Origin: Polytrichum commune
Taxonomy: Eukaryota; Streptophyta; Polytrichopsida; Polytrichales; Polytrichaceae
Direction of reading: 5' to 3'
DNA: 64,000 nucleotides
Assembly (NCBI GenBank): GCA_950295325.1
Contig: OX485806.1
Location: 56,291,169-56,355,168 of the forward strand
Shown: in pieces, positions 2,092-59,640 of the stretch
How positions within the stretch are numbered: the first letter of the stretch is position 1
Layout of the letters: each line of letters begins with the position of its first letter
Position numbers and translations under genes: made by a program
The notes under the pieces: generated by a model
The model's input: only the letters and a program-made list of their open reading frames with translations
The model's database searches: none
Told to the model about the DNA's origin: nothing

Positions 2092-2824
2092 GATCGAGTA
2101 TGAAAATTTCCAGGAAATGACCAAAGGGTATTTGAAAAGGGCATAGAAGCAAGAGTACATAGACATTAATTCTCCTATCCCCAAGCCCTAGATGTATAAT
2201 AATAAAATAAAAACAACGTCTGGGTTTTTTTTACCCTGGCGTGAATGGGAGCCCGTTCCTCTTTACCATGATCATGTTTGACCAAGTGTCATAGGGTGGG
2301 GTACTTCCTCCCTCACAGGAGGTGGGTTCCTTTAGTTTACTCACTGGTTCAATCCCTAGCCTCAACGGGGGGATGTTTGTTGTCTAGTTTTCTTTTATTT
2401 AATATCAAGAATGTGAGGTATTTAATGGCAACTTGGTGTATTTGTTTCATAAGTGTTTTGATTTCTCTTTAGGTGTTTTAAGGTTTTCTAGTTCTTTAAT
2501 TGGTTGTTCATGGATAGCCCCTCTAACTCTCGTTGTGATTGTGATGAGCGGGTTGACTTGCCACCCAGTCATTCTAAGTGTTTGCATGAGTGGGTTGTAT
2601 TTCTCGATTTTTTCCTTGTGTGCGGTATTTGGGAATCTATCATGACAGTATGTGAATTCAATGAATTGTATGACGTTTGGTGGAGTTGGTATTAGGGGAG
2701 GTTGGCTTTTAGGGGGGGCACCTAGTACGCATAGTATGCATGGTCTGAGCCTGGCTAGGCATGTGCATGGTGTGGTATGGTATGAGCATTGGAGTAGCCA
2801 TATTGGGACTGTGTTGTCTCATGG

Positions 2825-3067
2825 TCAGAGGTTTTGGTGACCTGCGTTTATAAGGGCGTAGCATCTTGTATATTTGCTTGATTGTAATGAACGTACGATT
2901 TGGTGTATTGCCTTATTGTGTCTTGCTATACGCAATCCCTTTAAGTATTGGTTTGAGCATGTAGAGAGTATTTGTAGCCATGTATGTAAGGCCTTATTAA
3001 GGCATAGTGTACAGTTTGGGTTTGGGTATATGTTGGGCCAAACTATATGTTTACGGTGGTTACCCAT
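2825..3067 (-). pseudogene. LINE ORF2 C-terminal Cys/His domain
   Basis: This open frame carries CTLC followed by HTWLQILSTC, the CX2C...H...C pattern typical of the C-terminal zinc-knuckle-like motif of many LINE ORF2 proteins. It is followed by LRIARHNKAI, resembling the RH-rich tail after that motif. It lies directly downstream of the RNase H region on the coding strand. Its role in the family is thought to be RNA binding during target-primed reverse transcription. Its first codon is not a real start; the frame is a fragment of ORF2. Confidence 0.65.
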
Positions 3068-3079
3068 GTATTGGGCGTA

Positions 3080-3892
3080 TCATAATTTTAGGGTTTGTGT
3101 GATTTGGGCGTCTGTTATTCCAGGGTTTTTCCATAATTGGTTGGAAAGTTTAGGGTTGATTTGGTCGTTGGATGTCCATTTGTCTATGTATGCAAATTTG
3201 GATTGGGCCCACTTTAATTCTTGGTTTTTGTGTTCTTTGTTAACGTATGTTTGTAGGTTTTGTATGGCACCCATGTGTGTACCGGTTGGGACCCCATTGA
3301 GCCAATATGGTGTGTTATGGGCCATATGTATCCTAGGGATGTTGGTGGGTTTGTCTAAGAGGGCTCCATTGTTTGCTAGCTGGTCTGCAATTTCATTTCC
3401 TATTATTCCTGTGTGTGCCTTGACTTTTGGATTATGATTTTGTGTGTGGACCATGTTATGTGGTTGATTATAGCGGAAATGAATAGTTTATCCAGGTGGT
3501 TGTGTTGGGATGATGGATGTCGTATATGGCTATGTATTAGATATATGTTGTTAAGGCTATCTGTAAAGATGTGTGTATCTTGTGTGTGTTGTTGTGTTTT
3601 TTGAATTGCTATGAGGAGGGCATTTACTTCAACTATGAGGATATTTTGTAGGCCTGGGAGTCTTTGTGCGATTTGAAGGTTGTTGGCGGGGCAATTTACA
3701 CCTGAGGTAGTTGTGTTCCCGATGTCGTTTCTTGTCTGGGGGGATAAATGATCCGTCGATGTATATACATTGTTGGGGTTTGGATTTAAGGGGGTGGGTG
3801 TGGTATAGTTCTATTGGTAGTTGTTGTGTTGAATGTGTGATTTCCTGGTGTTCATATATTGGGGTTTTATGCCATGCGTGTGATAGTTTCAT
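3080..3892 (-). pseudogene. LINE ORF2 RNase H domain
   Basis: Two open pieces (3892-3629 and 3454-3080) plus the sequence between them give a recognisable RNase H1-type fold. CIYIDGSFI carries the first catalytic Asp. VEVNALL carries the Glu. IFTDSLNNIY carries the second Asp. VKAHTGIIGNEIADQLAN holds the conserved H-x-G-x-x-GNExAD-x-LA signature with the last Asp. So all expected acidic residues appear retained, unlike in the RT and endonuclease. The domain would remove the RNA strand of the RNA/cDNA hybrid. RNase H occurs only in some LINE clades, including some plant L1 elements. Frameshifts separate the pieces. Confidence 0.8.
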
Positions 3893-6800
3893 TTTTTTCT
3901 TAGAGGGGGTTGTTTGTTGTGGATGTATTTTGGCTTGGGTGTTATAAAGCTCAAATATGTTGGTTGCGAGTGTGTTGAGTGTTATAGATTTACCTAGGGA
4001 GGGGGTTTGTATGTTAATTATGGTGGTGTATTGGTTTTCTAGTTGGTGTAAATATTTTGGCCATTCCGTTGTAGGGTTGTATTATATGGTGTTGGACGGT
4101 ATAGTTGATATTATGTGTACTTCCGCATGCGTCATTGGGAGCGGGTTCTTTTTTATGATTGATTATGATGATGGTTGTGGTATTGCGGTCTTCTTGGGTG
4201 GCCATGTGGGCCCAATGGATGGATGTCATGGCAATTTTGAGGTCTGAAGGGTGGGCCAAGCCGTTAGCTATTCCATTTTGATGAGTGTGCGAGCCCCGTC
4301 AAGCCAAATATTATGTCTTTGTTGTGTGGGGAGTTGTATTGGGTAAGTATTATTGGGCATGTAAAGGGTGAGGAGTAGTATGAATGTATAATATTATATG
4401 TTTCTACTAGGGCTTAAAGGGTGGAAGGGTGGAGGGTTTGATGGTTATTATGTGGATTGTGTTTTTTTGGTATTTTTTTTGGGAGGATAATAATATATCT
4501 TTGGGTTAGCCATAGTATTTCGATGGCAAAGTCTTGTGGTGGGGGGTTTAGGAAGTGGGTCATAGGGTGCTTTTGGTTTTGGTTATATCTTTCCCATAGC
4601 CATTGTAGTCTTGTAAGTGGCATGGTTAGGATGAATGCTCCCGTTTGGTCGCATATGTTGGATTCCGTTCCGTGTATTTGTATAGTGGGTTTGTTAGTGA
4701 TGATATCTTTGTTTGGGTTACATTCCTTAGTGTTTAATGTGAGGTTTGTGGCTATGATGGGTGGGCGGATGAATCTTTGGTCTCAGGATTGTAAGAAGTT
4801 TATGCATGAGTTGTATGTGGCTAGAGTGTTGGTTTTGAGTTGGCTTTGTAGGAATTCGTGAAGTATGAATATATTGTGGTCTAGGTAATATTATCATGGT
4901 GAAGGAGTATTGGTGCTTCCACCCATTTTGTCGTGTTAAGTGGGTGGTTATTTCATTGACATAGGAAGTGTTGTTTTATGGCTTTAGCTTCCATATGTCT
5001 TTATTAGTTGTTGTTTTGGCGTTTGTTATGGCTTGGATTGGTCTTCTGTATATGGGATCCATTTGATTGTTGGTGTTTGTGGGTGGGGTGCATGTTGGTT
5101 CTTGTTGTGGGGAGTTGTGTAGTGTGGGTGGGTTACATGGGAATAGCAATTGGGTTTGTGCTAAGACTTCTATGATGAGTTTTGGGGTAGTTTTAAATTT
5201 TTGTTTGAATTCTTTAGGGGTTAGTATTTGGAGGGTGTCAAGGTTTTGGATTTGATGAAGGGTGGTGATGTTGTAAGTGTGTAGTTTGTTGAGATATTTT
5301 TTTGAGGTTTGCTTCTACTCTGTGGAGAAGTGGGTATATTCCATGGATTGTGTCCACACAAGTTCTATTGTTGATTGTTTTATGGGAAAATGCTTTATAA
5401 TAGTATGTACATGGATTTCATATAACCTTTCGAGTAGGTATAATGTGTGTGCTATGGGTGATCTACCACATGCTTGGTATTTTAGGCGGGGGAGGTGGTA
5501 GGACCCTCCGTATTTTGCTGTGATATATTTGGTTAGGCCTTGGTAGATTTGGCCTAGTAGGCCTTGGTCATTGAGGGCATTTATTAATTGTTTACCAATA
5601 CAGTTGATGTATTCAGGGACGAGGGAGGTGGTTTTAATGCCAAAATCCTTGTTGGGGAGGTGGGTAAGTATGTTCAGTATGCTTTGGGGTAGGTTGCATA
5701 TTTCTTTGGTTAGCTTACTAAGGATTTTGTCGAGTTTTTTGATGTTTGGTTTGGAGAATGGGGCTGCATAGTAGGCGTAGGCTATTCCTGGTTTTATTAT
5801 TGTGTTGCGAACGTGTATTTTTTGCTTAATCGTGGCTGAAGATGTCATTAATAATTTGCTTTGTTTTTTAGTTTTTTCAAGGGTATTATTTATTTGGATA
5901 TTCCATTTTAGGGAGGGGACAAGATGAATGCCAAGGTATGTGTATGGTTTGTTTTGTGTGAGGATAGGGAAGGGTTGGTTTTTGAAGTGGATGTGTTGTG
6001 CGTGTATGTATGCTTTGAAGAGGGTGGGTTTTAATTTTGATTTGTATGGACACCCTGTGATTGCGCACTTAGAGAGGTTGAGGTCTAGGTATGCCCATTC
6101 TAAGAATTTTTGGAGTTTGTGAATTTGTGGTTGGATGTGTGCTACGTTATCGGTGAGGATGGCAAGATCGTTGGCATATGCTATAGTGTTACATGTGGTT
6201 GTTGATGTCTTGAGGTGGTATCCTTTGTTGTCTTTTTCTAGCCATCTGAGGAGTGGGTCTAAGAAAATGATAAGTAGGTATGGACCCTGGGTACGCAACT
6301 CCCGTATTATATGGTCCTGATTATAATCATTTATAATGCATTTTAGTCCAATATTGAGTGATACAATTTGTTTTAATGTAGGAAACCCTTGTAGTCCTTC
6401 TAACAAAGACTCCAAAAATGTAATTATATATAGGAAATGAATATATTTTGAAGCATATAATTGCATTCAAAACCTAATTATATATATCTTTTTTAATACA
6501 TGTACCATAGGTCAAACTACCCAAATTTTTGGATTTTTTAATAAAATTTTAACATTGTGAATGATTTATAATTTTAATGGGAGACAACTATTTGTGGCTT
6601 ATAATTCTAATTGGAGGCAAATATTCGTGTGGATTTTTTTAAATTATGTATAGGCAATTTACTGGTCTAACTGTTGGGATAGAAAACTAATGATTTGTGT
6701 TAGGATACAGTTGAGATATGTATTTTTAAGACCATATACATCATATGGTGCCCCAACTACTCAAAGATATCATGGGGTATTTCAAAATATCATGGGTTCC

Positions 6801-6842
6801 CGGTTTAGGGTTAGGGCTTAGGGTTTGAGGCTTCTATATATT
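6801..6842 (+). promoter_or_regulatory. Telomere-like repeats and TATA box inside the transposon
   Basis: From 6804 the sequence reads TTTAGGG-TTAGGG-CTTAGGG-TTT, a degenerate run of the plant telomeric heptamer (telo-box). It is followed within 10 bp by TCTATATAT (about 6832). This is a typical plant core-promoter arrangement about 120 bp ahead of the first ATG at 6964. Confidence 0.5.
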
Positions 6843-6963
6843 CGTTTTGAAGCTTTTGTGTTCGGTTTTGGAGTGTGCGGCTTTGCTTTGGAGCTTTTTG
6901 TGTCGTCGCTTTGGAGTGTGCTTGTGCTCATTTGGGAGGGTCATCCTTGGCTTAAACAAACAC

Positions 6964-7145
6964 ATGGATTGTGAGATGAAGCGTAGAGGCTCATGTAGTG
7001 GAGGTAGAGATAGGGAGAAGGAATATGTTACACATGTAATTGCCACAACTCCTTCCAAAAGAGGGAGACCTCGAAAGGACCCTCTATCATTTGTGAATAC
7101 TAATCCGACATCTACATTGAATACCCCTCTTAGACGCTCTACAAG
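6964..7145 (+). CDS. AT-hook first exon carried by the transposon
   Basis: From the ATG at 6964 an open frame of about 60 codons encodes a basic peptide with SKRGRPRKDP, a canonical AT-hook core (GRP flanked by basic residues) that binds the minor groove of AT-rich DNA. It ends at ACAAG|GTAAAA, a good 5' splice site, so it looks like a first exon with the rest of the gene missing. The open frame also reads upstream from 6847 without an ATG. It could be the 5' end of the autonomous parent's transposase or a captured host exon. No downstream exon is visible before the right TIR. Confidence 0.45.
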
Positions 7146-8309
7146 GTAAAAAAACTAGGTGTTTCAATTCTTTATATACGTTGGAGTTTTTTTTAATAAA
7201 TATGCAACCCAACTTCTTTTTTTCATCTCATTTATTTAATTTGGTCTTCACCCAACTTTTTTTTCATCTCATTTTATTTAATTTGGTCTTCACCCAACTT
7301 TTTGATCATTTTAATTTGATATAATTTTTACAAAAGCCGTCCTCTAAGCCGTTTTAAGTACGATGCCCCCTGCGTATAATATGGGAGTTGCGTACCCGGG
7401 GTATGGACTTAGAATGTCGCCTTGGATGGTACCTCTATTGATATGAACGGGTGGAGTCGTTCCAAAGTGGTTATCATGGAATAGGTGGTTGAGTTTGTAT
7501 ATATGTTTCGTATCAGTTCGACGGCGTCTCGGGGGTACCCTAAATCTTTTATTAGTGTGAGGAGTCTTGCATGGTCTATGGATCCAAAGGCGTTTTTAAA
7601 ATCTATGTAGGTAATATAGATGTCATTGTTGGTTAAGCGAGCGTCTTCTAGTGTTATTATTAGTGTTTGGATTTGTTGGGTCATGTTTCTTTGTGGTTTG
7701 AAACCTTTTTGGCTATAGTGTATTATTTTGTGTTTTTCGCCATAACTTGTGAGGAGCGTAGTGAGTGTACTGGTGTAGAGTTTATAAATGGTGTTAGCCA
7801 GAGCAATCGGTCTATAGTTGGTGAGTAGTAGTGGGTCAATTTTTTTGTGAAGGAGTATGGTTGTGTTGTGTTTCCAATATTGGGGTATGTTTTTTTGGTG
7901 ATAGCATTGCCAAAAGAAGAAAAATAGCATGTCATGGAAGGTTGGATGGAGGGCTTTAAGGATCTCATTTGGAATGTTGTCAGGGCTTGGGGTTTTTTCT
8001 CTTGCTAGTTTTTTAAGGCAGTTATCAAATACATCTCGAGAGAAATTTTCCGATATTGTGGAGTTGTGGGGGCCTCTTTTCTCCATAAGAAATCCGTCCT
8101 GATCATGTCATGGGTATTTTTGGACTGCGCATTGCCATGTTATGGGATGGTCCGTGGGGTCATCACAAAGGGGGGGTTTTCTATTAAAGGAATTTTGTTG
8201 TATTTGTAGGATTTCTTGTTTTATGTCTATTGAGTTTGTGAGTATGTTGCCCATTGTCGTAGTGTAAATACGTACACTATATACATGTGTATGTATTTTG
8301 TGTTTCATT

Positions 8310-9000
8310 GTGATTCCTTCATTTGGAGGAAAGTAAAAGGGAGTAGAATTAGATTACCTTTTTGTTTACTCATAGTTATTCTTAGTGACTTTTAGTTTAT
8401 CTTTTTTATTCTTATCTATCTTTTTTATTCTTAGTTTACTCTTATTACCCTTTTAGCCTTATTTCTAGTTTTATCATTAGTTTATTTTTAGACCAATGGA
8501 TAATTAGAAGCCATGTGATGAGGATAAGAGGAGGATTTTTGGCCTTATCTCACATGTGTGATTGAAGAGAAGAGATGTTGAGGAGACAAGAGTCTTTGTT
8601 GTGGAAAGCTCGTCGTCGTTGTTGTGTGTGTGTGGTTTTGAGAAGAAACTTGAAATAAAAAAGACAATTGCGTTTCATGTGACTGTTTTCTCTTGAATGT
8701 TTACATGCTTGAAAGAGAGTGAGCAAAAACAAAGTTGTGCTAGTTTGAGTGGAGGGAAGTCTGTTAGCTCTTGCATAGAAGGGTTGAGACTTCGACCGAC
8801 CACAAAAAGACGGACAAGTCTTTTGTTGGCAACAATCATTTGAGGGAGTAGCACTTATTGATAGATTTTTTTTTGTAAAGATTTGAAAGAAAGAAGAAGT
8901 TTTGAAGACAATTGAAGATTCGACGGTCCGGCAAGCAAAGCCAGTTGCAGCCAGAAGCCCAGTGCTTTCCTAAAGCGGACCCCTTTCTACACGACATCGT
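8310..9000. mobile_element. Unidentified ~0.7 kb insertion within LINE ORF2
   Basis: The G/T-rich bias of the LINE plus strand stops near 8310 and resumes near 9000. Between them the sequence is T-rich then purine-rich and breaks the ORF2 reading between endonuclease and RT. It may be a solo LTR, since it lacks terminal inverted repeats and has no long frame, but I could not fix its ends or a target duplication. Confidence 0.4.
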
Positions 9001-9009
9001 AGAGTCTTT

Positions 9010-9621
9010 GATGCAATTTAAGGGTGTGCTAATGAATGGTTTAAATATTTTTTTATGGATGTTCTTGGGTATAGTGTTTAGTAGGCCTGTATTTTGCGAT
9101 GGTTTTTTTGCAGTTGGTGGCAATTTGTTTGGTGATGATTTTGTGTGCTTCTATTCTGGCCGTACGACCTATAGTAGCAAGTTCTTCAATTCATTGCTTG
9201 ATGGTTGCATTGTTGGCGGGGGTGGGGGGGATGTGTGTGTTTTTTAGGGTGTATAGTTGTTGGATGTCTTGATGGCTTGGCCAACTTGTGCATGGTGTGG
9301 AGTACGCCACCCGTATTACTTTTCTAGTGGTGTGGTATATCTTGAGGTGGGATTTCCATAATTTTTGTTGCTTTTGTGGGAGGAAGTCACCTTTTTGCCT
9401 AGCTCTGTGTGACAATGGGTTGGGGGTTTGTGTATCGAGGCATGTTGCTTAGATGCATGAGCTTAAAGTGTTGATTAAATCTTGGAATTTTTTTGGGCGT
9501 TTTTCCATTCTGTTCGATTAAGGTGTGGGGTGTGTAGTTTCTGAGTGAGTGATTGTGTGGTAAGGTTGGTGGTTTCTTGGAAGTTGGTGTGTATTTGTTG
9601 AATATGTTCTGGTGGTATGGG
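9010..9621 (-). pseudogene. LINE ORF2 linker between endonuclease and RT
   Basis: The coding-strand frame includes an open piece (9415-9191) and continues past a stop through IEELATIGRTARIEAHKII to about 9070. It is basic and Lys/Gln-rich, like the helical spacer usually found between EN and RT in LINE proteins. Three in-frame stops fall just before the foreign segment at about 9000. No catalytic motif is expected here. Confidence 0.55.
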
Positions 9622-10528
9622 TTATGTAATTTTTGGGGTGTGTGCTATGGCTTTGTCAACTTTTTGGGCTAATGTGTTAGGGCCTAGGTCTAAGTTGACA
9701 GTGTAGTGGTTAGAGTTTTGATTTTGGTGGAGTAAGGTTGTGCATGTTATGTGCTTATGATTTGGTATGTTAGTATAGAAGCCGTCAATGAGGCTAGTGA
9801 ATGAGTAGTTTTGTCCTCCTTGTTGAGAGAGGGTTTCAATATTGCGAATTGAATGTAGATTTAGGTTATGCATAAGTCGTGCCCACTCTCTATCTTTGTG
9901 GGTGGGAGTTTGTGGTGTGCCTTTGTGGATATGTCCTTGCAATAAGATATCTCTGTTAGAGTCTCCTGCTAGTATGGTTTTGTGTGTAGAATGATGTGTT
10001 ATTAGAGTGTTAATTTGGACTATGATGTCAGGTATGAGATTTAAGTCACGTGGATGTGATGGCATATATAGGTTCATAATGAGGATTGATGTTAGTGGTT
10101 TGTTGCCTATGTTAAGTACTTGCAGGTAGGGTGAAACATTGGCTGGGGTGGCGATTTTGGTTATATTTTTAGGTGTATATATATATATTTTAATCATGAT
10201 TAGGACGCCTCCCCGAGGTGGTTCGTCCTTAGTATATTGGTGTTTTTCTTCCAGGGTTTTTTGTGTTCATATTGTTGTATAGTATTTTGTAGTCTAGGAA
10301 CATGTTGTCTATGCACATGGTATATTTGTCTTTGGTTAGTTTAGTTTTTTGTATTAGGATAATGTTGGGTTTGTTGTGTGTGATATGTATAAATTCTACA
10401 ACGCATGGTAGGCTAGAGCTTATATGCCATGTATTCCATGTGACAATGTGGATGTTTGTGTTGTGTGTGTATTGTGGTTGGAGGGGTTGTTCATGTGTGG
10501 GATTGTGGGTGTTTGTGTAGCCAGCCAC
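9622..10528 (-). pseudogene. LINE ORF2 AP endonuclease domain
   Basis: Two frames joined by a frameshift near 10200 give the order of an APE-like endonuclease: VTWNTW near the start, IILIQKTKL, ILIMNLYMPSH (the I-x-N-x-Y-x-P block), ILAGDSNRDI (G-D-x-N), SLIDGFYTN and NSNHYTVNLDL (normally S-D-H). The enzyme would nick the genomic target to prime reverse transcription. Two catalytic positions are replaced: the Glu of the Q-E-T block is Lys (codon 10346-10348), and the Asp of SDH is Asn (codon 9709-9711). Both are G-to-A changes on the coding strand. The domain is therefore inactive. Confidence 0.85.
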
Positions 10529-10552: not shown

Positions 10553-11536
10553 TTATACAAATTGTTCGGGTAGGAGGGGGAAGTGTTGTGCTAGGTTTTG
10601 TTGGGTTACGACCTTTCTTTGGGCTATGCTTTGGTTAATGTGGTTATATATGGATGTTATTGAGGGGACTTGTGATGTGTATTTGGCGAATATTTGTGAT
10701 AGGTAGGGAGGTTCTATGTATTGGTGTGGGCCAGTGTTTTGTAACCTTTGTAGTATAGTGAGACATCTTGGGTCTAGATGTTTAGAGAGTTGTTCATTGC
10801 ATTGCTGAGGTATTGGGCTCATGGCTATTATGAAGGCGTATATCTGGTAATGTAGGGGGTATTGTGATAGTAGGATACTGTGCCGATGGAGATGAGGTAG
10901 GATTATGTTGTGGTTGGGTGAGGCATGTTGGGCCAAGTGTGGGGCAAAGAGCTCTTCTAGGTGTTGGTATTGAGGTTTAAGTCTTAGGGTATGTGTTATG
11001 AAGTACAGTCTTTATCTTTTGGTGTATTCTTTTGGGAGATTTTTGAGGATTTGTATGAGCGGTCCGGGGTTGGGTTGTATGTCTCCTCCTAGGAGTATGA
11101 GTGTTTGGAGGTCGCTGATGTATGTAGCTATTTTGTATATGTTTGGGTGTCTATGGTAAGGGCGTTTTATTGCGTAGAAGGTTATGCTGGTTATGCTAGT
11201 TATGTGCACATGTATGGGTTTTTGGTGTTGCAATTGTAATTGGTGTGGGGAGTGGGGTGGTATGGTAACTTGTGGGTCTATGGTATATGTGGGGGGTATT
11301 ATGGTTACTATTTTATGCGCATGTGTTATAAGTTGTGGCATGAGTGTTGGGGTTGTCATTTGTAAAGTATAAGTGTAGATTTGATTATGGGTAGTATGAT
11401 AATAAGGGTTTATTTGGTTGACGGGGGGGGGAGGTGGATTAGCCATATTATGAGTGTAAGGCTTAGTGTTGCTAGTTTTCTTAGATGGTATTTTGATTTT
11501 GGGTAGTGCTTTGGTGGTGTGCTTCGGTGGGGACAT
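10553..11536 (-). pseudogene. LINE ORF2 N-terminal extension with 2A-like motif
   Basis: ORF2 probably starts at the ATG at 11536. The pieces 11536-11012, 10936-10553 and 10528-10229 share one reading frame, interrupted only by stops, so this extension was fused to the endonuclease. The first ~140 residues are Pro/Thr/His-rich and end in LILLGGDIQPNPGP (about 11060-11100). That matches the D-x-x-x-NPGP core of 2A ribosome-skipping peptides, known at the N-terminus of several animal LINE ORFs. The following ~130 residues (10936-10553) match nothing I know. If active, the motif would release a short N-terminal peptide from the EN-RT polyprotein. Confidence 0.7.
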
Positions 11537-11868
11537 AATTGTTGGTAGCTAGTGTGCATGCATGTAATGGTAAGAGAGGGTGGCCGAAGTGTGAGTTTGC
11601 ACTCTTTATTATAAGTATGATATAAAGAATAAAACAAGACGTATAGGGACCATTGAAGGTAGTCCATGTGGTAGCTATTCATTAAAAGTATGAAGCCCTT
11701 GATGGTGGATTGGAGGGTTGCCATGGAAGCCCGGGGGCGCTTGGAGTGGGAGCGGTGGGCGGTTGTGTTGGGTCTTTGTAGCATTGGAGGTGGGATGGTC
11801 CTTTGGAGAATTTCCGGGGCGGCGGCGGATAGGCCAATGACTATCCCTTGCATTCGAATATTGGATTG

Positions 11869-14085
11869 TTAAAATTCGTGGGCGATCGTCCTGAGGAGTG
11901 CTTGGAGCTGGGTGGTGTAGTGGATGATTGTTGTCGTAGTTGCTTCAAGTCTTCGATCCGTGTGGGTATTGATTATTGTGGTGAGGGTGCCAAATTTCTC
12001 GTCGAGTTTGTTCCCGAGGTCCTTCATGGTCTTGATGAGGTGTTTTCCGGTGACGAGTGGGTTGAGATTGGCGGCATTATTCATTGCTTGGATCTTGTCC
12101 GTCATGGCCTCTCTTACGGGTGCGTATGCAAGGCGGATTGTCATGTTGTTGGGGTCCGTACCATCAATATTTCCTTGATCTGTGATGAAATCTATGCGCC
12201 TTCCGAGTATGTATGTTGACTTTTGTAACCATTCCGTGTGTACCGCGGCATTAAGGCATTGAATGTGTCACCATCCCACTTACTTATCGGTGTGAGGGTG
12301 ATTGTTAGCGCCAAAATTTACTCCATCTATGTTGTCCACAACAAATATTTGTTTTATGGCTTGTGTGATGGATGTTTGGGTTTCACGTTGTAGAAGGTTG
12401 TTGGCCACGAAGGTGGTACTAATCCAGAGCTCCGATGGGTTGCCGGCGCTTCAATCCCGGGTGATATTTACTTGGAGTTTCTCGTGGTTGAAGACAAGCC
12501 CGTCCTTGAGCACTATGTCTTTTGCTTCTTCCGTGGTGAGGGTAAGGAATGTGAAGTTCTTGTCTAGCTCCCGTTTGGTGAGGCTCGTAAATTCGTGTTA
12601 TTTCCCGGAGTAATAACTCTCATGTACGAGGGCCTCGAATATGTTGAATGCGTGTTCGTGACATAGCGATTCTCCTTTGAGATATAGTCATAGATTGCGG
12701 ACCTTGGTAACAAGCTCATATCCCTTCTCTACCTTTCCGATAACCGACACTCCATCCTCCATGTCCATGGCGAATGCTCGACTACCTTGGAGGAGTGTGA
12801 TTCCGTCGCCTTGTGGGTGTTGGAGGTGTATTTTGATGAACCCCACCCAATTTTTGGTGATGGCGTTAATACCAATATCAATTGGGTTTGAGTATGTCAT
12901 TTTGAGGGGTATGTCCATTTGCTAGAGTCTATTTAGGCAAACTCCCTTCGCCTCTTGCCTACTAATGCTTTTGAATATGTAGTCAAAATAGATGGTAATG
13001 TGGAATCCTTCGGATAGTCCGGTGGTGAAGTGGAGATGGTTGCCAGAGACCACATCCGATCTCTCACTTGGATACAATAATTGTGGTATCCGCAGGAATA
13101 TTCTCATGGTGTCTTGAAATCTATGATTTCTCTTGAGGGGGTCCCGATCTTTGCGAACTCTTCATTGGTGCAGTGCTCGTGTATGATGTCTTTGTCCTTT
13201 TGTAGCGCGACGGCTTTGTGGATTGGGAAGCCTAGCCACATTTGTGAGACTATATTCATGCTCGGGATTGCTTCTTTGGTCTTCAAAATTTGGGATTTGC
13301 TTGAGAGGGAGGTGGCCATATGTCTCCTCACCTCACTTTTTTTAGTGCTATGGGTGTCGGTTGTAGTTTTCCTCCTTGGGCTTTCATGTGATGTTGTTGT
13401 GGGTATCATTTACACTAGGTTGATGCCGTCTAGTCGGAATGCGGCGGCTTAATTGAGAGCGGTGGTGAATTCATCATTTGAAATGGAGAGCTGGAGGGAG
13501 TTCTTCCCATGTTCGGGGGAGACATCTTCGAGTTACATGTCAATGTCAAGTTCATGGTAGGGGGTTTTTTCCTTCATAAGTGTGGGTTGCTTTGCTTGGG
13601 GGCCATCTGCTCCCCCCTCATCCTCCTTGTTGAAGTTTTCTAACAAGGCTCTACGCCTCCTAAACATACTCTCGACCCCGCCCCTATTCACGGCCTCGCC
13701 CTCAGTGCCATTGGCTCCTATGCCTCCTTGCTGGTTTGTTTGTCTTTGCCCCGCTCCGCTCTTGCTTACGGCCCCGCCCCTGGTGTCACTAGCTCCTGAG
13801 TCTACTTGCACGGTTACCTATCTTCGCCCCGTCCCGCCCCGCCCCTGCTCACGGCCCTGCCGTCGGTGCCATCAACACGTGCGTCTGCTTACTCGTTTGC
13901 ATGTCTTTGCCCCACCCCCAGTGCCACCAGCGCCTAAGTCTACTCGCTCGCTCGCTCGCATGTCTTCGCCCAGCCCCACCCCTGCTCAAGACCTCGCCTT
14001 CGGCGTTGCTAGCCCCGATTTCGGTGTCCTCGTTTTTTTTGTAGCCACTCCCTCGCCTGCTCCCAACTTCATTGTTGGAGGCCAT
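11869..14085 (-). pseudogene. LINE ORF1
   Basis: A coding frame can be followed from ATG 14085 through repeats, a MFRRRRALLENF basic block (about 13650), and open pieces 13409-13104, 13107-12922, 12918-12688 and 12144-11869. From 13107 to 11869 a single frame persists with about six stops, for example before SAGNPSELW (12430) and around VGW (12260). A 1-nt shift lies near 13100. Recognisable stretches include KNWVGFIKIHL, LTTEEAKDIVLKDGLVF and TEWLQKSTYILGRRIDF. I do not recognise a standard RRM or zinc knuckle. By position it should be the RNA-binding ORF1 protein. Its base composition is more balanced than that of ORF2. Confidence 0.65.
13681..14032. repeat. GC-rich ~80-bp degenerate tandem repeat in ORF1
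   Basis: Units opening with CCCCTRYTCACGGCCYCGCC-like sequence start near 13681, 13759, 13842 and 13979 (spacing 78, 83 and 137, the last containing a truncated unit). Each continues with a GTGCCAYTAGCTCCTGAGTC-like half. On the coding strand they give a Gly/Glu/Arg-rich ~27-residue repeat (GASxTEGEAVxRGGAG type). Unequal unit lengths shift the frame between units. Confidence 0.65.
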
Positions 14086-30300: not shown

Positions 30301-30776
30301 GGTTGATTTCCTTTCATTTAGCTAGTAAGATGTTTCAGTTTGCTAAGTTTTAGAAGTCCAAGGCAAAACAAGATGGGAAAGTCTCTAACTCCCATTGCCA
30401 AATTAAGGGATCCTTTATTTTGAAGAATGAAAAAATTAGGCCTAGTAAATTCAAAGTCATATAATCTTGCTCAGTCTCCTAGCCACCACACTTGTACCAA
30501 TATCATCACAATGCCCTAGAGGAATTTTGAAGGATGCCAATATTGACATGGATATATTGGGGTGCACTTCATTCAAAACATATGGTGCTAGAGGTTTTAT
30601 ACCCAAAATCTTTCCGCATGCATAGGTAATTATGGCCCATCATAGTTTATAATGCATGTCACATCTAGATGTTATGGTGTTTTTCTCTTTATGTGTTATT
30701 TTTACAACATTTTTACAACATTTTTTTCAATATGCATAACATTTCTCTAGTTGTTGTGCACCTTTCCATGAGAGAC
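27311..30776. other. Intergenic DNA without a recognised gene
   Basis: Several open frames occur, the longest 28869-29357 on plus (162 codons, very hydrophobic and Cys-rich). None has a known motif, an intron context or a homologous partner in the window. I treat them as chance frames in T-rich DNA or as unrecognisable transposon remains. Confidence 0.35.
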
Positions 30777-31732
30777 TGTCACAACCCTTGCTAGCCCCTT
30801 AACAATTTTAATCATTTTCATTCCCAGCAAAGGTCACGAGTACTAACCCTTCGCATTTTGCCATGCTAATGGTTAGCCCCCCATACCGCGGACCTTATAA
30901 GTTCCTAAAAGGGGAACCAACCTTTTTACTTTGCTTTTGGGACCCGCCCTTTAATCGGTAACCAATTCTTAGATGTGGACTTCCATCCATGAAGATCCAA
31001 TCTTATGTTGATCATCGCGTTGCTGGAGCAATACTACAACAACCCGTGGCATACTAGCAACTATGCCCTCACATTGGCCAATGCCCGTGGAGGCCGTGCC
31101 GTTCCGCCTCGGATGGGTTTGGTGGCCACATCGCCTCATTCATATAAGCCTCTAACACTTTTGTTAGGCCCCTACCCCACCGTCAAGAAAAAATTTATCT
31201 CTCTACCAAGATTTGGGGCCAAGTAGACATTTTCCTTTAAGCGCTAGGGGTGGAAGCCCCCAACAGCTTCACTCCACTATAATTTCCTTGTATGATCTCT
31301 GATTATACCTTCCAACAACTTCATCAATATCGAAGTTTCACGTAGATGCCGATGGATTCCTCATTTGCTTCATTCAGGCAAATATTGAGGAAATTATGTT
31401 TGTTCAAACTTCGGTAGTCTCAGGAGCTACTCCCAAGCCACTGATGTACCAAGGTGGTGTCCCGGGACAACGCCCCATTCAAATTGCTATATCTCCTAGC
31501 CCACACATCTGATTGAGGTGTTTATGAACTTTCTAGAATGCTCACTTCATGAACTTACCGTCGTGACTCCTAGTCTCTATGGGTGGGAGGCGTTTCCAAT
31601 GTCCGGGGCCCTCATCCACACTAGGATCACCTGGGCCCTCTCATCAATGGCGCCACAAGTCCTGGATGTCACTCTCGGATTCTCCTAGATCCCATGGTAT
31701 TATGGGAACTCGTCATGGAAAGGTGCGCGATA
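30777..31732 (+). repeat. LTR-like dispersed repeat, copy B
   Basis: Begins TGTCACAACCC and is collinear with 1120-2091 in the same orientation, including the GCTAATGGTTAGC block, GGACCTTATA, GGCCGTGCCGTTC, a CATATAAGCCTCT TATA-like site (about 31140), the ACACTAGGATCACCTGGGCC block and the end GGTGCGCGATAT. Small indels and many substitutions separate the copies, so both are old. The copies are not obviously the two LTRs of a single element, since the 29 kb between them contains host FolD. Confidence 0.7.
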
Positions 31733-33074
31733 TTTATCCCCACGAAACGAAGTTGATACCCTCATCAACTACACTCATAATCGGCACACCAATTCTCAAA
31801 TTGCCATCCTCTATGAAGCCACGGTCACTACTACCATCTAACATGACCATCATCACCGAGTCTTTTATTGTATGTAGATAACATATATCCTCCGGAACCC
31901 CACCTTGTGTTGAACCTATCTTAACCCAACTTTCTTTGGCTTGGATAATACTTCATTGTCGAACGGCTATGTGCCGCCCATTGTGGGTTTGACCAACATT
32001 ATTGTTATTTTACAATGACATTTGCATTCATGTTGTCAACATGAAGCCACTATAGACCGTTATATCAAAGTCTTTAAACCAAAATGTTTGATGGACACAC
32101 CCATTGAGGGGGCTACTTATACCAAACCCTAGGGAAAAAAAATTGAAAATAAAACTCATTGGCATTTGATAATTTCCAATGCAATGTTTTCATGAGGATG
32201 GATAGGTGTCGATGTTAGGGTGGGACCCATACCCATGTAAGGAATCTAGAAACACTTGCATAAGATTGGCAAATGGCAAAAAACACAATCTTACCTCATG
32301 ACAAGGTAAAAACCACTTCACATACAATGCCCATGACCATTACATTTTAAACATTTTTATTTGTGGAGAAGACAAAGTCCGTCCAAGTTTGTTCCACACT
32401 ACGTTTGAGGGACCAACATAGTAAGTGAATGCAAGATGGATGCAAAATCTACATGGATATCAACATGGCATCAAATGGATTTTGTTTCAAAAATCACCTC
32501 TTGGAGATAGACCTAACACAAAACCGGTAAAGCATAGCACTCCAAAATCTCTCAATTCTTGATTTATTATAAATTATCATGTGGGATGACCCTACATGAA
32601 TAAAAAAAATCCATCAAAATATCATTTGGTTGAGGACCCGGTCACACGCAACTTCAAACTACATTTGAGGGCATGTGACCACAATACGTGATTTTGGAGG
32701 GATTTGGGGTTGCCTTTGGACACTTTCTTTTGGGCTCTTACAATTTCATGGTTACGGCTCTTGGCTCATTTGTGAAATGACCTTAAGCATGGTTTAAAAA
32801 ACAACATGCACTTGATCAATAGATAGGATAATTTATATTTTTTACTTTGCTATGATTGGTTGCTAGGGTGTTGGCTACAAAACACATGTTGAAGATATTG
32901 GACACATGTTTATTCTCATTGGGCATCACATTAATATAGCAAATCCCCTTGTAATTTTTTTAGGAAAAAAAAATATATATATGAAAAGACATGTCACAAA
33001 TACATATTTCTATGAAAGGCTGAAATAACAATATCATTTTCACACTTATACAACTTCAAATTTTTTAAACAAAG
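31733..33074. other. Intergenic DNA right of repeat copy B
   Basis: The first ~300 bp (31740-32040) may be the interior of the element whose LTR is copy B, but no open frame or primer-binding site supports this. The rest is AT-rich with no recognised gene. Confidence 0.35.
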
Positions 33075-34714
33075 TGTAACGAACCTCTCACCGGTTTATC
33101 ACCAACTTCCACACTAACACGTATCAACCCAAAACAATCATAGACCAAGTAGGTCTTGGTTTAAGCTCAACCACCCGACCATAGGAGAAAGACCAAAGGT
33201 GCTCTCTCCTCCCCTGAGCTTCTTCTTATGCCGAAGCACTACTTTTACTTTCTATCTTTACATATAGTAAAAATATCATATTCATAGCTCTATCTTTTAG
33301 TTCTACTATGAATCTTCTATCTTTGGTTCTTGTTCGACTTCCATGTTTATGACCGCAGTTGAGATGTTTAGAACTACTTCTTTGGTTGGCTCACCATCTG
33401 ACCCATCGTCGTCATCTTGTTCTACCTCTAAGGTTGCTATCTTTCTTTTGATTGTTGGGCATTCAAAGCTCCGATGCCCAGGCTTGTGACACTTAAAACA
33501 TAATCTTTTCTTAACATGCTCTTCTTGGTTTTCCTTGCTCAGCATTGAAGACTTGTTCCCTTGATTGAAGTTTAAAAATTGAGAAGGTTTGGAAGTTTTA
33601 GAAAACTTAGCAAATTTGGAGCTTTGATTGGCAGGGTAATTAGACACTAAGGATTTTTTCCCCAATTGACCTTTATTCCTCTCCATCATGCTATTAACTT
33701 CTCTTTCAAAGTTCATAGCCAACCCATAAGCTTCATCTAAAGTCTTTGGACTATGAGCACTAACTTTGAACCGGATTGAATCTTTTAAGTTGCGAACAAA
33801 TAATTCAATTATGTCACTTTCACCCCAATTAGGAAAGTAAATAATGTGTTCATCAAACTTTAACTTGAATTGGGTAACTGACAAACTTCCCTGCTTCAAG
33901 TCATACAATCCTTGGCGCATGTCCTCGCCATAGTTGCCAGGGAGAAATTGATGAAGAAATAATTCTTTGAAAGTACTCCATGTTGAAATAGGCCCCAATC
34001 CTCGGTTTTCGCGGTCCTTCTTTAATGTATCGAACCAAACTTTAGCTTTGTCTTGAAGAAAAAATATTGCGGCCTTGATCTTATCTGCATTCTTGTACTT
34101 TGACGGGAAAAAATCCTCCACTATCGAAATGAAAGACATGACTTCTTCTGGTTTGCAATTTCGCCTTCCAAAACTCGGTTTGATTGGATATTTTTTCAAA
34201 TCGTTCAAAATATCAATTTTTCCATGAGAAAATCTCCTTGGAGAAGATGTTGCACTCGACTCTACCTCTCTTGAGACAGGTGGTGTAACTGTAAGATTTC
34301 CTCTTGAAAGAGGTGGAGAATAAGGAAGAGTCTCCCTAGGAAGAGGTGGGATTCCAGGTTGTGCTAAACCTTGGCCTTCCCTCAATGCAGGCAAGACGGC
34401 TCTCACAATCCTTTCTTCAAATCCCTCCATAGGATCCATTCCTGCTCTGATACCAATTGTAACGAACCTCTCACCGGTTTATCACCAACTTTCACACTAA
34501 CACGTACCAACCCAAAATAATCATAGACCAAGTAGGTCTTAGTTTAAGCTCAACCACCCGACCATAGGAAAGAGACCAAATGTGCTCTCTCCTCCCCCGA
34601 GCTTCTTCTTATGCCGAAGCACTACTTTGACTTTCTATCTTTACATATAGTAAAAATATCATATTCATAACTCTATCTTTTAGTTCTACTATGAATCTTC
34701 CATCTTTGGTTCTT
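33075..34714 (-). mobile_element. Compact gag-only LTR element (TR-GAG type)
   Basis: Two 257-bp direct repeats (33075-33331 and 34458-34714) align without gaps and differ at about 11 positions by eye, mostly transitions. Each begins TGTAACGAACC on plus, so the LTR ends GGTTCGTTACA on the coding strand. Directly inside the 5' LTR on minus is TGGTATCAGAGC (about 34444-34457), the classic plant primer-binding site complementary to initiator tRNA-Met. The interior encodes only Gag, with no protease, RT or integrase. The element is 1,640 bp. It must use enzymes of an autonomous Ty3/gypsy partner. No clear target duplication was found. Confidence 0.85.
33306..34439 (-). CDS. Gag polyprotein with CCHC zinc knuckle
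   Basis: An intact 377-codon frame starts at an ATG about 18 bp inside the 5' LTR, just after the primer-binding site, and stops a few residues into the 3' LTR. Residues ~90-230 form a retrotrans_gag-type capsid region (KAAIFFLQDKAKVWFDTL, WSTFKELFLHQFLP, LKQGSLSVTQFKLKFDEH). Near residue 315 is CFKCHKPGHRSFEC, a perfect CX2CX4HX4C knuckle that binds RNA. An acidic tail follows. The protein would form virus-like particles packaging the element RNA. Intactness beside decayed neighbours suggests relatively recent insertion. Confidence 0.88.
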   Translation of the reverse strand: MDPMEGFEERIVRAVLPALREGQGLAQPGIPPLPRETLPYSPPLSRGNLTVTPPVSREVESSATSSPRRFSHGKIDILNDLKKYPIKPSFGRRNCKPEEVMSFISIVEDFFPSKYKNADKIKAAIFFLQDKAKVWFDTLKKDRENRGLGPISTWSTFKELFLHQFLPGNYGEDMRQGLYDLKQGSLSVTQFKLKFDEHIIYFPNWGESDIIELFVRNLKDSIRFKVSAHSPKTLDEAYGLAMNFEREVNSMMERNKGQLGKKSLVSNYPANQSSKFAKFSKTSKPSQFLNFNQGNKSSMLSKENQEEHVKKRLCFKCHKPGHRSFECPTIKRKIATLEVEQDDDDGSDGEPTKEVVLNISTAVINMEVEQEPKIEDS

Positions 34715-36840: not shown

Positions 36841-37530
36841 TCTAATAACACAACAATTAGCATAAATATGGTTGCATTAGATTAATAAGGCAACAAATAG
36901 GGCGTTAATCACACACTTAATATAAAAATGAAATATTTTAAGCATTTAAGCATATAGTATGGCCTAGGCTATGGGTTAGTCTAATAACGCATCAATTACC
37001 TAAAATATGATAGCATTAGACTAATAACACAACAATTAGGGTGTTAATCACACATTTAAGATAAAAATGAAACATTTAAGCATTTAATCAAGCACATGGT
37101 ATAGCTTAGGCTATGGGTTAGTTTAATAAGGTAACAATTAGTATAAGTATGTTAGCAATAGGGTAATAACACAACAATTAAGACACTAATCATACACTTA
37201 AGATAAAAATGAAACATTTTAAGTTGTCAATCAAGAATTTGGCATACATTAGGCAATGGGTTAGTCCAATAATACAATAATTAGCACAAATATGGTAACA
37301 TTAGGCTAATAACACAATAATTAAGGTGTTAATCACACACTTTAGATAAAAATGAAACATTTAAGTATTTAATCGAACATATGGGACGACTTAGGTTATG
37401 GTTAGTTTAATAAGACAACAATTAGTATAAATATGGTAGCATTAGGCTAATAACACAACAATTAAGGTACTAATTATACACTTAAGACAAAAATGAAACA
37501 TTTAAGCCATTAATCAAGAATATGTTGTGC
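36841..37530. repeat. ~141-bp tandem repeat, nearly five copies
   Basis: The landmark ATAAAAATGAAA (with variants) recurs at 36922, 37061, 37203, 37346 and 37487, spacing 139, 142, 143 and 141 bp. Each unit has two related ~40-bp halves with TAATAACACAACAATTAG, then TTAATCACACACTTAAG, then CATTTAAGCATTTAATCAAG and GGCTATGGGTTAGT. Units are diverged but collinear. Confidence 0.92.
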
Positions 37531-58377: not shown

Positions 58378-58752
58378 TCAGTGCCATAACTCTACATTGG
58401 TAGAATTTAAGTCACGTACAACATGAGACCAACTATGATTGTGGGTATGGGATGTCCCTAGTTCATATAGATTACCTACCCTTCTTCCCGAGAAAATTAA
58501 TGTTTTACTCTCTTGGTCCTTTGTAAGGCATGAGTATGTTATGAACTCTACTTGGTAGCCCGCATCCGTAACTCTACTAACATGAATTAAACTCTTTTTT
58601 AAAGCCGGTATATGTAGGACATTCTTGATTGTCCTAGCTTCTCCACTATCTAGTGCAATCATGACAATCCCTCGTCCTTCAATATCATGACTCAAGTTGT
58701 CCCCCAAGCATACTTTACTTTTGCCAAGTTCTTGGTGTAGGACACAAACCAC
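58378..58752 (-). pseudogene. Copia gag-pre-integrase region
   Basis: A 124-codon frame with VLHIPALKKSLIHVSRVTDAGYQVEF and a terminal LWH, the typical segment between the copia protease and integrase. Confidence 0.8.
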
Positions 58753-58852
58753 TCAACGTGTGGCGTCATGTGTTATGTTGCTATGGAACCGAGGTATCAC
58801 TTGTCACTCGATGTGTCTTCAACCTCCAATGCCATCATAAATAATTTAGTGT

Positions 58853-59640
58853 TTAAAACACTATTGGCTTGGTGATGGACTTCACTTTTTCCTCTTGAAA
58901 GCAAATCCTATAATCTTTGATGTGGTGATTGGCCTTGCCACAATGAAAATCATTATTTTTTAAATGAAGGGTTTTATTAATAGTCTCAAATTTCCTCTTT
59001 GGAAATTTGAAATTTCCCTTAAATGGTTTTTTGTTAGAGTACAAGGCTTGAGGTTTATCCTCAAGATCTCTCCCTTTGGATTTCCCCCTTATCTCTTGTA
59101 ACAAGAGACTTGTAACACCTTCTAGTGTTAAATTGGGTTGACCACTTATGAAAACTACTAATCCTTCATGGAATTCGGGCAAAGAGCCCAAAATTACAAT
59201 AGCACTATCATTATCACTTATATTGGTTCTTGTACTTGCTAAATTATCATTTAGAGAACGGAATGTGTTTACATGATTTGTTGATGTATCTTCCTCTGAC
59301 ATTTTTAATGTAAACAATTTTTTATTGTAGTAAATTTTTGTTAGAGCACGAAAAGTTTTAAATATTTTCGTTAGCCTATTCCATACTTCTTTTGATGTTA
59401 TGCATTTATTAACATGTGAAAGTTGACACGTCTTTCAAAGCAAGTAATATGTTTGTTTTTGCCTTGCTATCTTTCTTATCCCATGTTGATTGATTTGTCG
59501 GAGTTGTTGGTCATACTTCCAAGCCGTCCGCATGTCCGAAAAAAACTTTGTTCAACAACACCATCTCCATCCGAATTTTCCATCTATGAGAATTCATGCC
59601 ATCAAATTGATTGATTTGGCGGACATCCATAGATGAGGAT
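58853..59640 (-). pseudogene. Copia Gag remnant
   Basis: The N-terminal part (about 59640-59480) reads FDGMNSHRWKIRMEMVL, the usual F-x-G-x-N-x-x-x-W opening. The 59317-58853 frame has the UBN2-type capsid core (LGSLPEFHEGLVVFI, LTLEGVTSLLLQEI). The zinc knuckle is damaged: HCGKANHHIKDYRIC lacks the first Cys of CX2CX4HX4C. Confidence 0.8.

Follow-up and report, generated by a model that had tools for sequence, protein, structure and literature searches.

The window, by which we mean the whole 64,000-nt stretch of moss DNA analysed, lies at 56291169-56355168 on C4, one of the 64 contigs of a 407.8 Mb genome assembly, nearly all of which is contained in seven chromosome-sized contigs of 77.9, 70.3, 59.2, 59.1, 52.9, 44.7 and 42.1 Mb; seven chromosomes would suit a polytrichaceous moss. 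Judged by homology, the minus strand of the window carries a decayed copy of an APE-type LINE, which belongs to a large and diverse family (Table 1). The anatomy of the element was worked out by tblastn and Pfam, with a related copy, L022, as the guide. ORF2 of L022 matched PF03372 (E 8.9e-8), PF14529 (E 2.2e-7) and PF00078 (E 8.9e-33), in this order, and the endonuclease (EN) thus precedes the reverse transcriptase (RT), as in APE-type non-LTR retrotransposons (LINEs). The L022 RNase H (PF00075, E 6.7e-16) lies in a frame separate from that of the RT, and in a further copy, L046, one open frame contains the RT, a PCIF1-like domain and RNase H. Pfam returned no match for pieces of the L022 ORF1. 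The best PDB match of the RT was an R2 protein, a match that does not settle the clade, and no relatives turned up in an IMG/VR scan that used a portion of the L022 RT as the query.

Table 1. Features of the LINE copy, with positions in the window.
Feature	Position	Strand	Basis
ORF1 remnant, decayed	11675..13658	minus	homologous to L022 ORF1 (tblastn); stop TAG 11677-11675
ATGAATAG, ORF2 start codon overlapping ORF1 stop	11675..11682	minus	ATGNNTAR in 20/20 located copies
MNSYHMDYLQWSLYVLFYSLYHTYNKE, conserved, moderately hydrophobic ORF2 N-terminus	11602..11682	minus	
Variable Pro/Thr/His-rich ORF2 leader, with frame change inside in this copy	11102..11601	minus	
Core of the 2A-like motif, DIQPNPGP	11083..11060	minus	translation
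Predicted skipped G/P bond	G codon 11065-11063, P codon 11062-11060; junction 11063/11062	minus	
Post-2A domain, ~158 aa	10505..10990	minus	domain search match at C4:56301673-56302158
APE-type endonuclease, two frames, approximate ends	9697..10456	minus	PF14529 E 4.4e-5 (under its cut-off); tblastn with L022 ORF2
Second ORF2 insertion, EN-RT interval, approximate ends	8249..9000		
Reverse transcriptase, insertion-interrupted	5921..7837	minus	PF00078 on both pieces; tblastn
Inserted element inside RT	6286..7399	plus	direct repeats, inverted ends
PCIF1-like domain remnant, RT-RNase H interval, approximate ends	4276..4548	minus	homology to L022 (tblastn)
RNase H, broken	3335..3741	minus	PF00075 E 0.0013 on C-terminal piece (under its cut-off); homology search with relatives
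C-terminal zinc-finger-like C-x2-C ... C stretch CTLCLNKALHTWLQILSTC	2957..3013	minus	read from translation; region aligned to L046
Approximate 3' end of element	2193..2203	minus	homology with L009 and L016 stops there (blastn)

The PCIF1-like domain was matched by PF12237 in L022:8152-9870 (E 3.4e-8) and on the reverse strand of L046 at 5964-10000 (E 4.2e-11). Its assignment rests on Pfam, because the PCIF1/RNase H piece, when compared with the PDB, gave RNase H1 only, and no PCIF1. The catalytic NPPF motif of PCIF1 appears to be lost in the LINE domain, judged by eye. Literature searches found no LINE with a PCIF1-like domain. The description of the element as a plant LINE with a 2A-like motif, given in the initial annotation, holds: EN, RT and RNase H were found by Pfam, and the genome contains an intact rbcL on C8, with rubisco large chains as the best PDB matches. 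It is followed by tRNA-Arg(CCG) and by an ORF that we take to be accD, an arrangement commonly found in bryophytes and in certain other non-seed plants. The insertion inside the RT has inverted ends around GGTACGCAACTCCC and is bordered on either side by the 9-bp sequence GGTATGGAC as a direct repeat (6277-6285 and 7400-7408), features that resemble those of a non-autonomous Mutator-type DNA transposon.

The StopGo/2A-like motif is the 14-mer LILLGGDIQPNPGP, read by translation from the minus strand at 11101..11060, practically where it had been placed (11060..11100); the minus strand at 11104..11057 reads T-LILLGGDIQPNPGP-L. It is the sole match in the six frames of the whole window to the motif patterns searched. 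The window copy has NPGP at p16-p19 and DI at p12-p13, where StopGo sequences have D/G/C/N followed by V/I, and its upstream hexapeptide, LILLGG, fits the LLLLSG-like class. At p14 it departs from the expected E and has Q. This Gln for Glu replacement had been remarked upon at the outset, and it proved to be a fixed variant of the window subfamily, E being the commonest residue genome-wide. The ORF holding the motif runs from ATG 11536 to a stop at 11014-11012, 15 codons past the last Pro, and the motif lies 145-151 codons behind this ATG, in agreement with the earlier figure of about 148. The claim that the motif is in frame with the endonuclease stands in that the frame is the one in which the EN begins (NIHIVTWNTW at 10456), but this frame is interrupted by stops. 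ORF1 and the EN also contain stops and frame changes, and ORF2 is broken by two insertions. The window copy is dead, and is incapable of making an EN-RT protein.

The position of ATG 11536 as the ORF2 start, proposed in the initial annotation, was ruled out, since relatives share with the window copy another, ancestral start, ATGAATAG at 11682, which overlaps the ORF1 stop. A leader-peptide search of the retrieved loci matched 24 loci or windows, from which L013, L019, L026 and L039 were dropped (weak, partial and short of a Met). All 20 located copies contain the ATGNNTAR overlap, with TAG as the ORF1 stop in 19 and TAA in L025, and upstream of it the ORF1 reading frame runs without a stop for as many as 979 codons. 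NPGP out of frame, or upstream of the true start, would have spoken against a 2A-like role; instead it lies downstream of the ORF2 start, and start and first site still share a frame in 12 of the 20 copies. The 11682 start and the core are separated by 599 nt in the window copy, and a frame change must therefore lie between them. Termination-reinitiation occurs in other LINEs, and by analogy ORF2 may be coupled to ORF1 in this way.

The first 27 residues of ORF2 are conserved (M-x-S ... W ... NK). The N-terminus is moderately hydrophobic, with best 15-residue Kyte-Doolittle means of 0.71 to 2.32, and in some copies the maximum falls just past the 27-residue stretch. The leader is about 200 residues or more in length, and its hydrophobic opening sits about 200 residues from the site in most copies measured. 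This length and hydrophobic start, together with the presence of up to four sites in other copies, do not agree with the original proposal of a single site freeing one short Pro/Thr/His-rich peptide. The E-type copies L034, L036 and L037 have a frame open across the full 499 codons examined upstream of the 2A, and contain degenerate MASAYRPRH-like repeat units.

The back-translated pattern for GGDIQPNPGP matched the genome exactly at 36 places, which vary synonymously among themselves, and the reversed pattern matched nowhere. The patterns D-[I/V/L/F]-E-x-NPGP and D-[I/V/L/F]-H-x-NPGP gave 269 and 69 matches, each against 0 reversed, and D(I/V/L/F)xxNPGP, with any residue at p14 and p15, gave 455 against 8. 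Residues were counted on contig C1, where the list of sites is complete (96 sites). Position p13 is I in 95 and V in one; p14 is E in 56, Q in 20, H in 14, K in 4, and R and Y in one each. Position p15 is free, and all four Pro codons at p17 and all four Gly codons at p18 are used.

Conservation across related copies, the check that the initial annotation had called for, was also assessed independently of the motif, using the post-motif domain of L022 as the query. Among the 150 candidates scored out of 425, we took 80 copies that start within the first three query residues and lie outside the earlier set, leaving out about 15 further qualifying ones, and read 210 bases at the start of each. 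The motif was recognisable in 75 of the 80 and NPGP exact in 57 (50 in frame and 7 in another frame), while 18 were altered, one of them by a stop, and 5 had no motif. The 23 copies without an exact NPGP are what is expected of decaying copies, which is no proof of decay. The conserved positions in the 65 in-frame copies are G11 (61), D12 (63), N16 (64), P17 (55), G18 (63) and P19 (61), with I (60) or V (4) at p13, an L/I-rich p6-p9 and a free p15. Codon differences in these copies are synonymous in 80-92% of cases at D, N, G and P19, and in 56% at P17; the losses of P17 are mostly to L or S, single changes as decay would yield. With the domain of the E-type copy L046 as a second query (150 of 642 candidates scored), 32 of the 36 matches on C1 were preceded by an exact site at a distance of 80-93 nt (90 or 93 nt in 31, 80 nt in one), in frame with the domain in 31 of the 32; three of the four matches without a site contain internal stops. 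These data show that the motif is conserved through selection at the protein level, and not by chance.

Several copies contain more than one site. On C1 there are 15 neighbouring same-strand pairs less than 1.5 kb apart, and the spacing is a multiple of three in 14. Outside C1, 14 pairs could be formed from the GGDIQPNPGP and H sites listed, and 9 of them are in frame and 5 out. Together, 23 of 29 pairs are in frame against an expected one third (binomial 5e-7, the related copies being non-independent, with a spacing of 462 occurring eight times). Counted as distinct spacings, 13 of 18 are in frame, 461 and 463 differing from 462 by the shift of a single base. A single open frame holds four sites in L042, whose p14 residues are Q, E, Y and H, and three in L043, and L022, L010 and L011 have two each. 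An open frame of 2131 codons contains two copies of the post-2A domain, at C2:36080587 and 36081388, and an E-type site of its own precedes each.

We know of no StopGo sequence with K or R at p14 that works. In PMC12846837, the StopGo core is given as (D/G/C/N)(V/I)ExNPGP, with p14 nearly always E in viral StopGo and an LLLLSG-like hexapeptide ahead of D12 as one functional upstream class. The same paper reports activity above 95% for the rare variants with H at p14 and, from earlier work, 56% or 26% for E14Q. According to Li et al., rare variants performed better in native than in foreign contexts. The E sites of the family are predicted with high probability to be active, and sites with Q, H or K at p14 are less certain than those with E. 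For the Q sites of the window subfamily we lean, on balance, towards predicting activity. It is also conceivable that only the E-type subfamilies, and perhaps the H-type, skip, the Q-type window subfamily being nearly or fully inactive with its leader left fused. The published loss of activity in E14Q would suit this, given that Q stands at p14 in the window copy and in the other Q copies read. However, Q has been kept over many diverged copies, the 36 exact matches among them, with D, N, G and P conserved, which speaks for continued use, and the native-context effect of Li et al. points the same way; we consider an inactive Q type rather doubtful.

NPGP might instead be kept as a structural turn that borders a folded N-terminal domain of ORF2, with no skipping at all. 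Conserved I, L, P, Y, R and YF columns do continue behind the motif, for about 20 residues past NPGP, and p14 is not confined to E. Nevertheless, the fixed p11-p13 and p16-p19, the free p15 and the L/I residues at p6-p9 are the StopGo pattern, E is the commonest residue at p14 on C1, and the site, which separates a variable leader from a conserved domain, recurs in frame at each module, all of which makes a mere turn unlikely. The Pro/Thr/His-rich leader could raise the suspicion that the 14-mer is a chance resemblance in a low-complexity, Pro-rich translation, a reading of negligible probability that is ruled out by the reversed-pattern counts and opposed by the presence of the motif, at a fixed distance, in copies picked without it. 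The LINE could also be foreign to the plant genome, as an animal contaminant or through recent horizontal transfer: 2A-bearing LINEs are known in animals and trypanosomes, and are named also in PMC4981915 and PMC11512398. Such an origin is very improbable, as sites are present on all seven large contigs (C1-C7), and the subfamilies differ at about half of the post-2A domain residues; the family has therefore been long present or long diversifying. An ancient transfer of the LINE family would be compatible with these observations.

The explanation that we favor, and regard as likely from the sequence comparisons, is that ORF2 of this LINE family bears StopGo/2A-like sites at the boundary between a leader and a catalytic polyprotein, where ribosomes would skip. 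The family layout comprises ORF1, the overlapping ORF2 start, the hydrophobic-tipped leader, one to four L-rich-G-D-I-x-x-N-P-G-P sites, a conserved domain, EN, RT, the PCIF1-like domain and RNase H. Ribosomes past the ORF1 stop would restart at the overlapping ATG and translate the leader. At each site the G-P bond would be skipped, the leader and whatever module lies between sites would come off as individual proteins, and translation would proceed into an EN-RT-RNase H protein that starts with Pro. Skipping is possibly partial, with a ratio of released to fused product that may vary with the p14 residue (E, H, Q or K). The likely use would be to detach the enzyme from the leader, since the hydrophobic tip of the leader might send a fused protein to the wrong place. 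More tentatively, we suggest that the family may encode a serial StopGo polyprotein of a plant nuclear transposon, consisting of leader, module(s) and EN-RT-PCIF1-like-RNase H, in which E, H, Q and K at p14 would act as tuned release settings.

LINEs bearing 2A belong to the clades Rex1, Crack, L2, CR1 and Ingi, and those of animals tend to have lost ORF1. L1Tc, associated with Heras et al. (2006), is reportedly a 2A-bearing LINE as well. The moss family resembles the known 2A-bearing LINEs in having an APE-type EN and an RT, and in that the ORF encoding them carries a D-I/V-E-x-NPGP-type sequence close to its N-terminus. It differs from them in its plastid-bearing host, retained ORF1, up to four serial sites, Q/H/K at p14, PCIF1-like domain, RNase H and ATGNNTAR overlap of ORF1 and ORF2. 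In its features it is a variant of these elements. Plant L1-type LINEs with RNase H likewise combine ORF1, EN, RT and RNase H in a plant genome, whereas the moss family adds the 2A-like sites, the post-2A domain and the PCIF1-like domain.

Outside LINEs, the StopGo/2A of RNA viruses, as presented in PMC12846837, shares with the moss sites an L-rich hexapeptide ending in G, D12, I13, N16-P-G-P19 and a free p15, but the moss sites have E at p14 in only 56 of 96 cases on C1 and are located in a plant retrotransposon. Picornavirus polyproteins with several 2A-NPGP (PMC11512398) similarly have several sites serially in one ORF, whereas the moss case is a nuclear LINE, and its inter-site modules are copies of the leader and the post-2A domain. 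Sea urchin NLR proteins have an N-terminal 2A that acts as a signal sequence (PMC4981915); there too a hydrophobic stretch precedes a 2A close to the N-terminus, and what becomes of the product could depend on skipping. In most moss copies measured, by contrast, this stretch is about 200 residues away from the site and only moderately hydrophobic.

StopGo is common in RNA viruses and rare in cellular organisms, and no natural use was found in plant viruses, although StopGo works in plant cells, according to PMC12846837. A 2A sequence is described as functional in N. benthamiana in PMC4981915, and both that paper and PMC11512398 place cellular 2A sequences in non-LTR retrotransposons and NLR genes. 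Our literature searches found no 2A in a plant or moss LINE; the survey of Rao et al. (2025), reportedly of eukaryotic 2A sequences, may already include plant cases. A plant genome with hundreds of conserved sites, partly canonical and some of them serial, would provide a natural plant StopGo system. It would also show many natural p14 variants (E, Q, H, K) side by side in one genome, exemplify a LINE in which ORF1 and 2A are kept together, and provide native plant 2A sequences for testing.

Other repeats occur in the window. At 33069-34714 there is a gag-only LTR element with a 377-aa ORF (Retrotrans_gag and a CCHC knuckle) and two 263-bp direct repeats that are 95% identical, between which there is no pol ORF of at least 120 aa. 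A dispersed repeat of about 1 kb occurs at 1119-2091 and 30776-31733 (78% identical within the window), and is also found beside or in L012 and L023. A tandem array with a period of 285 (2.4 copies, 81% matches) lies at 36843-37523, and a remnant of a copia-type element (Retrotran_gag_2) at 58378-59317.
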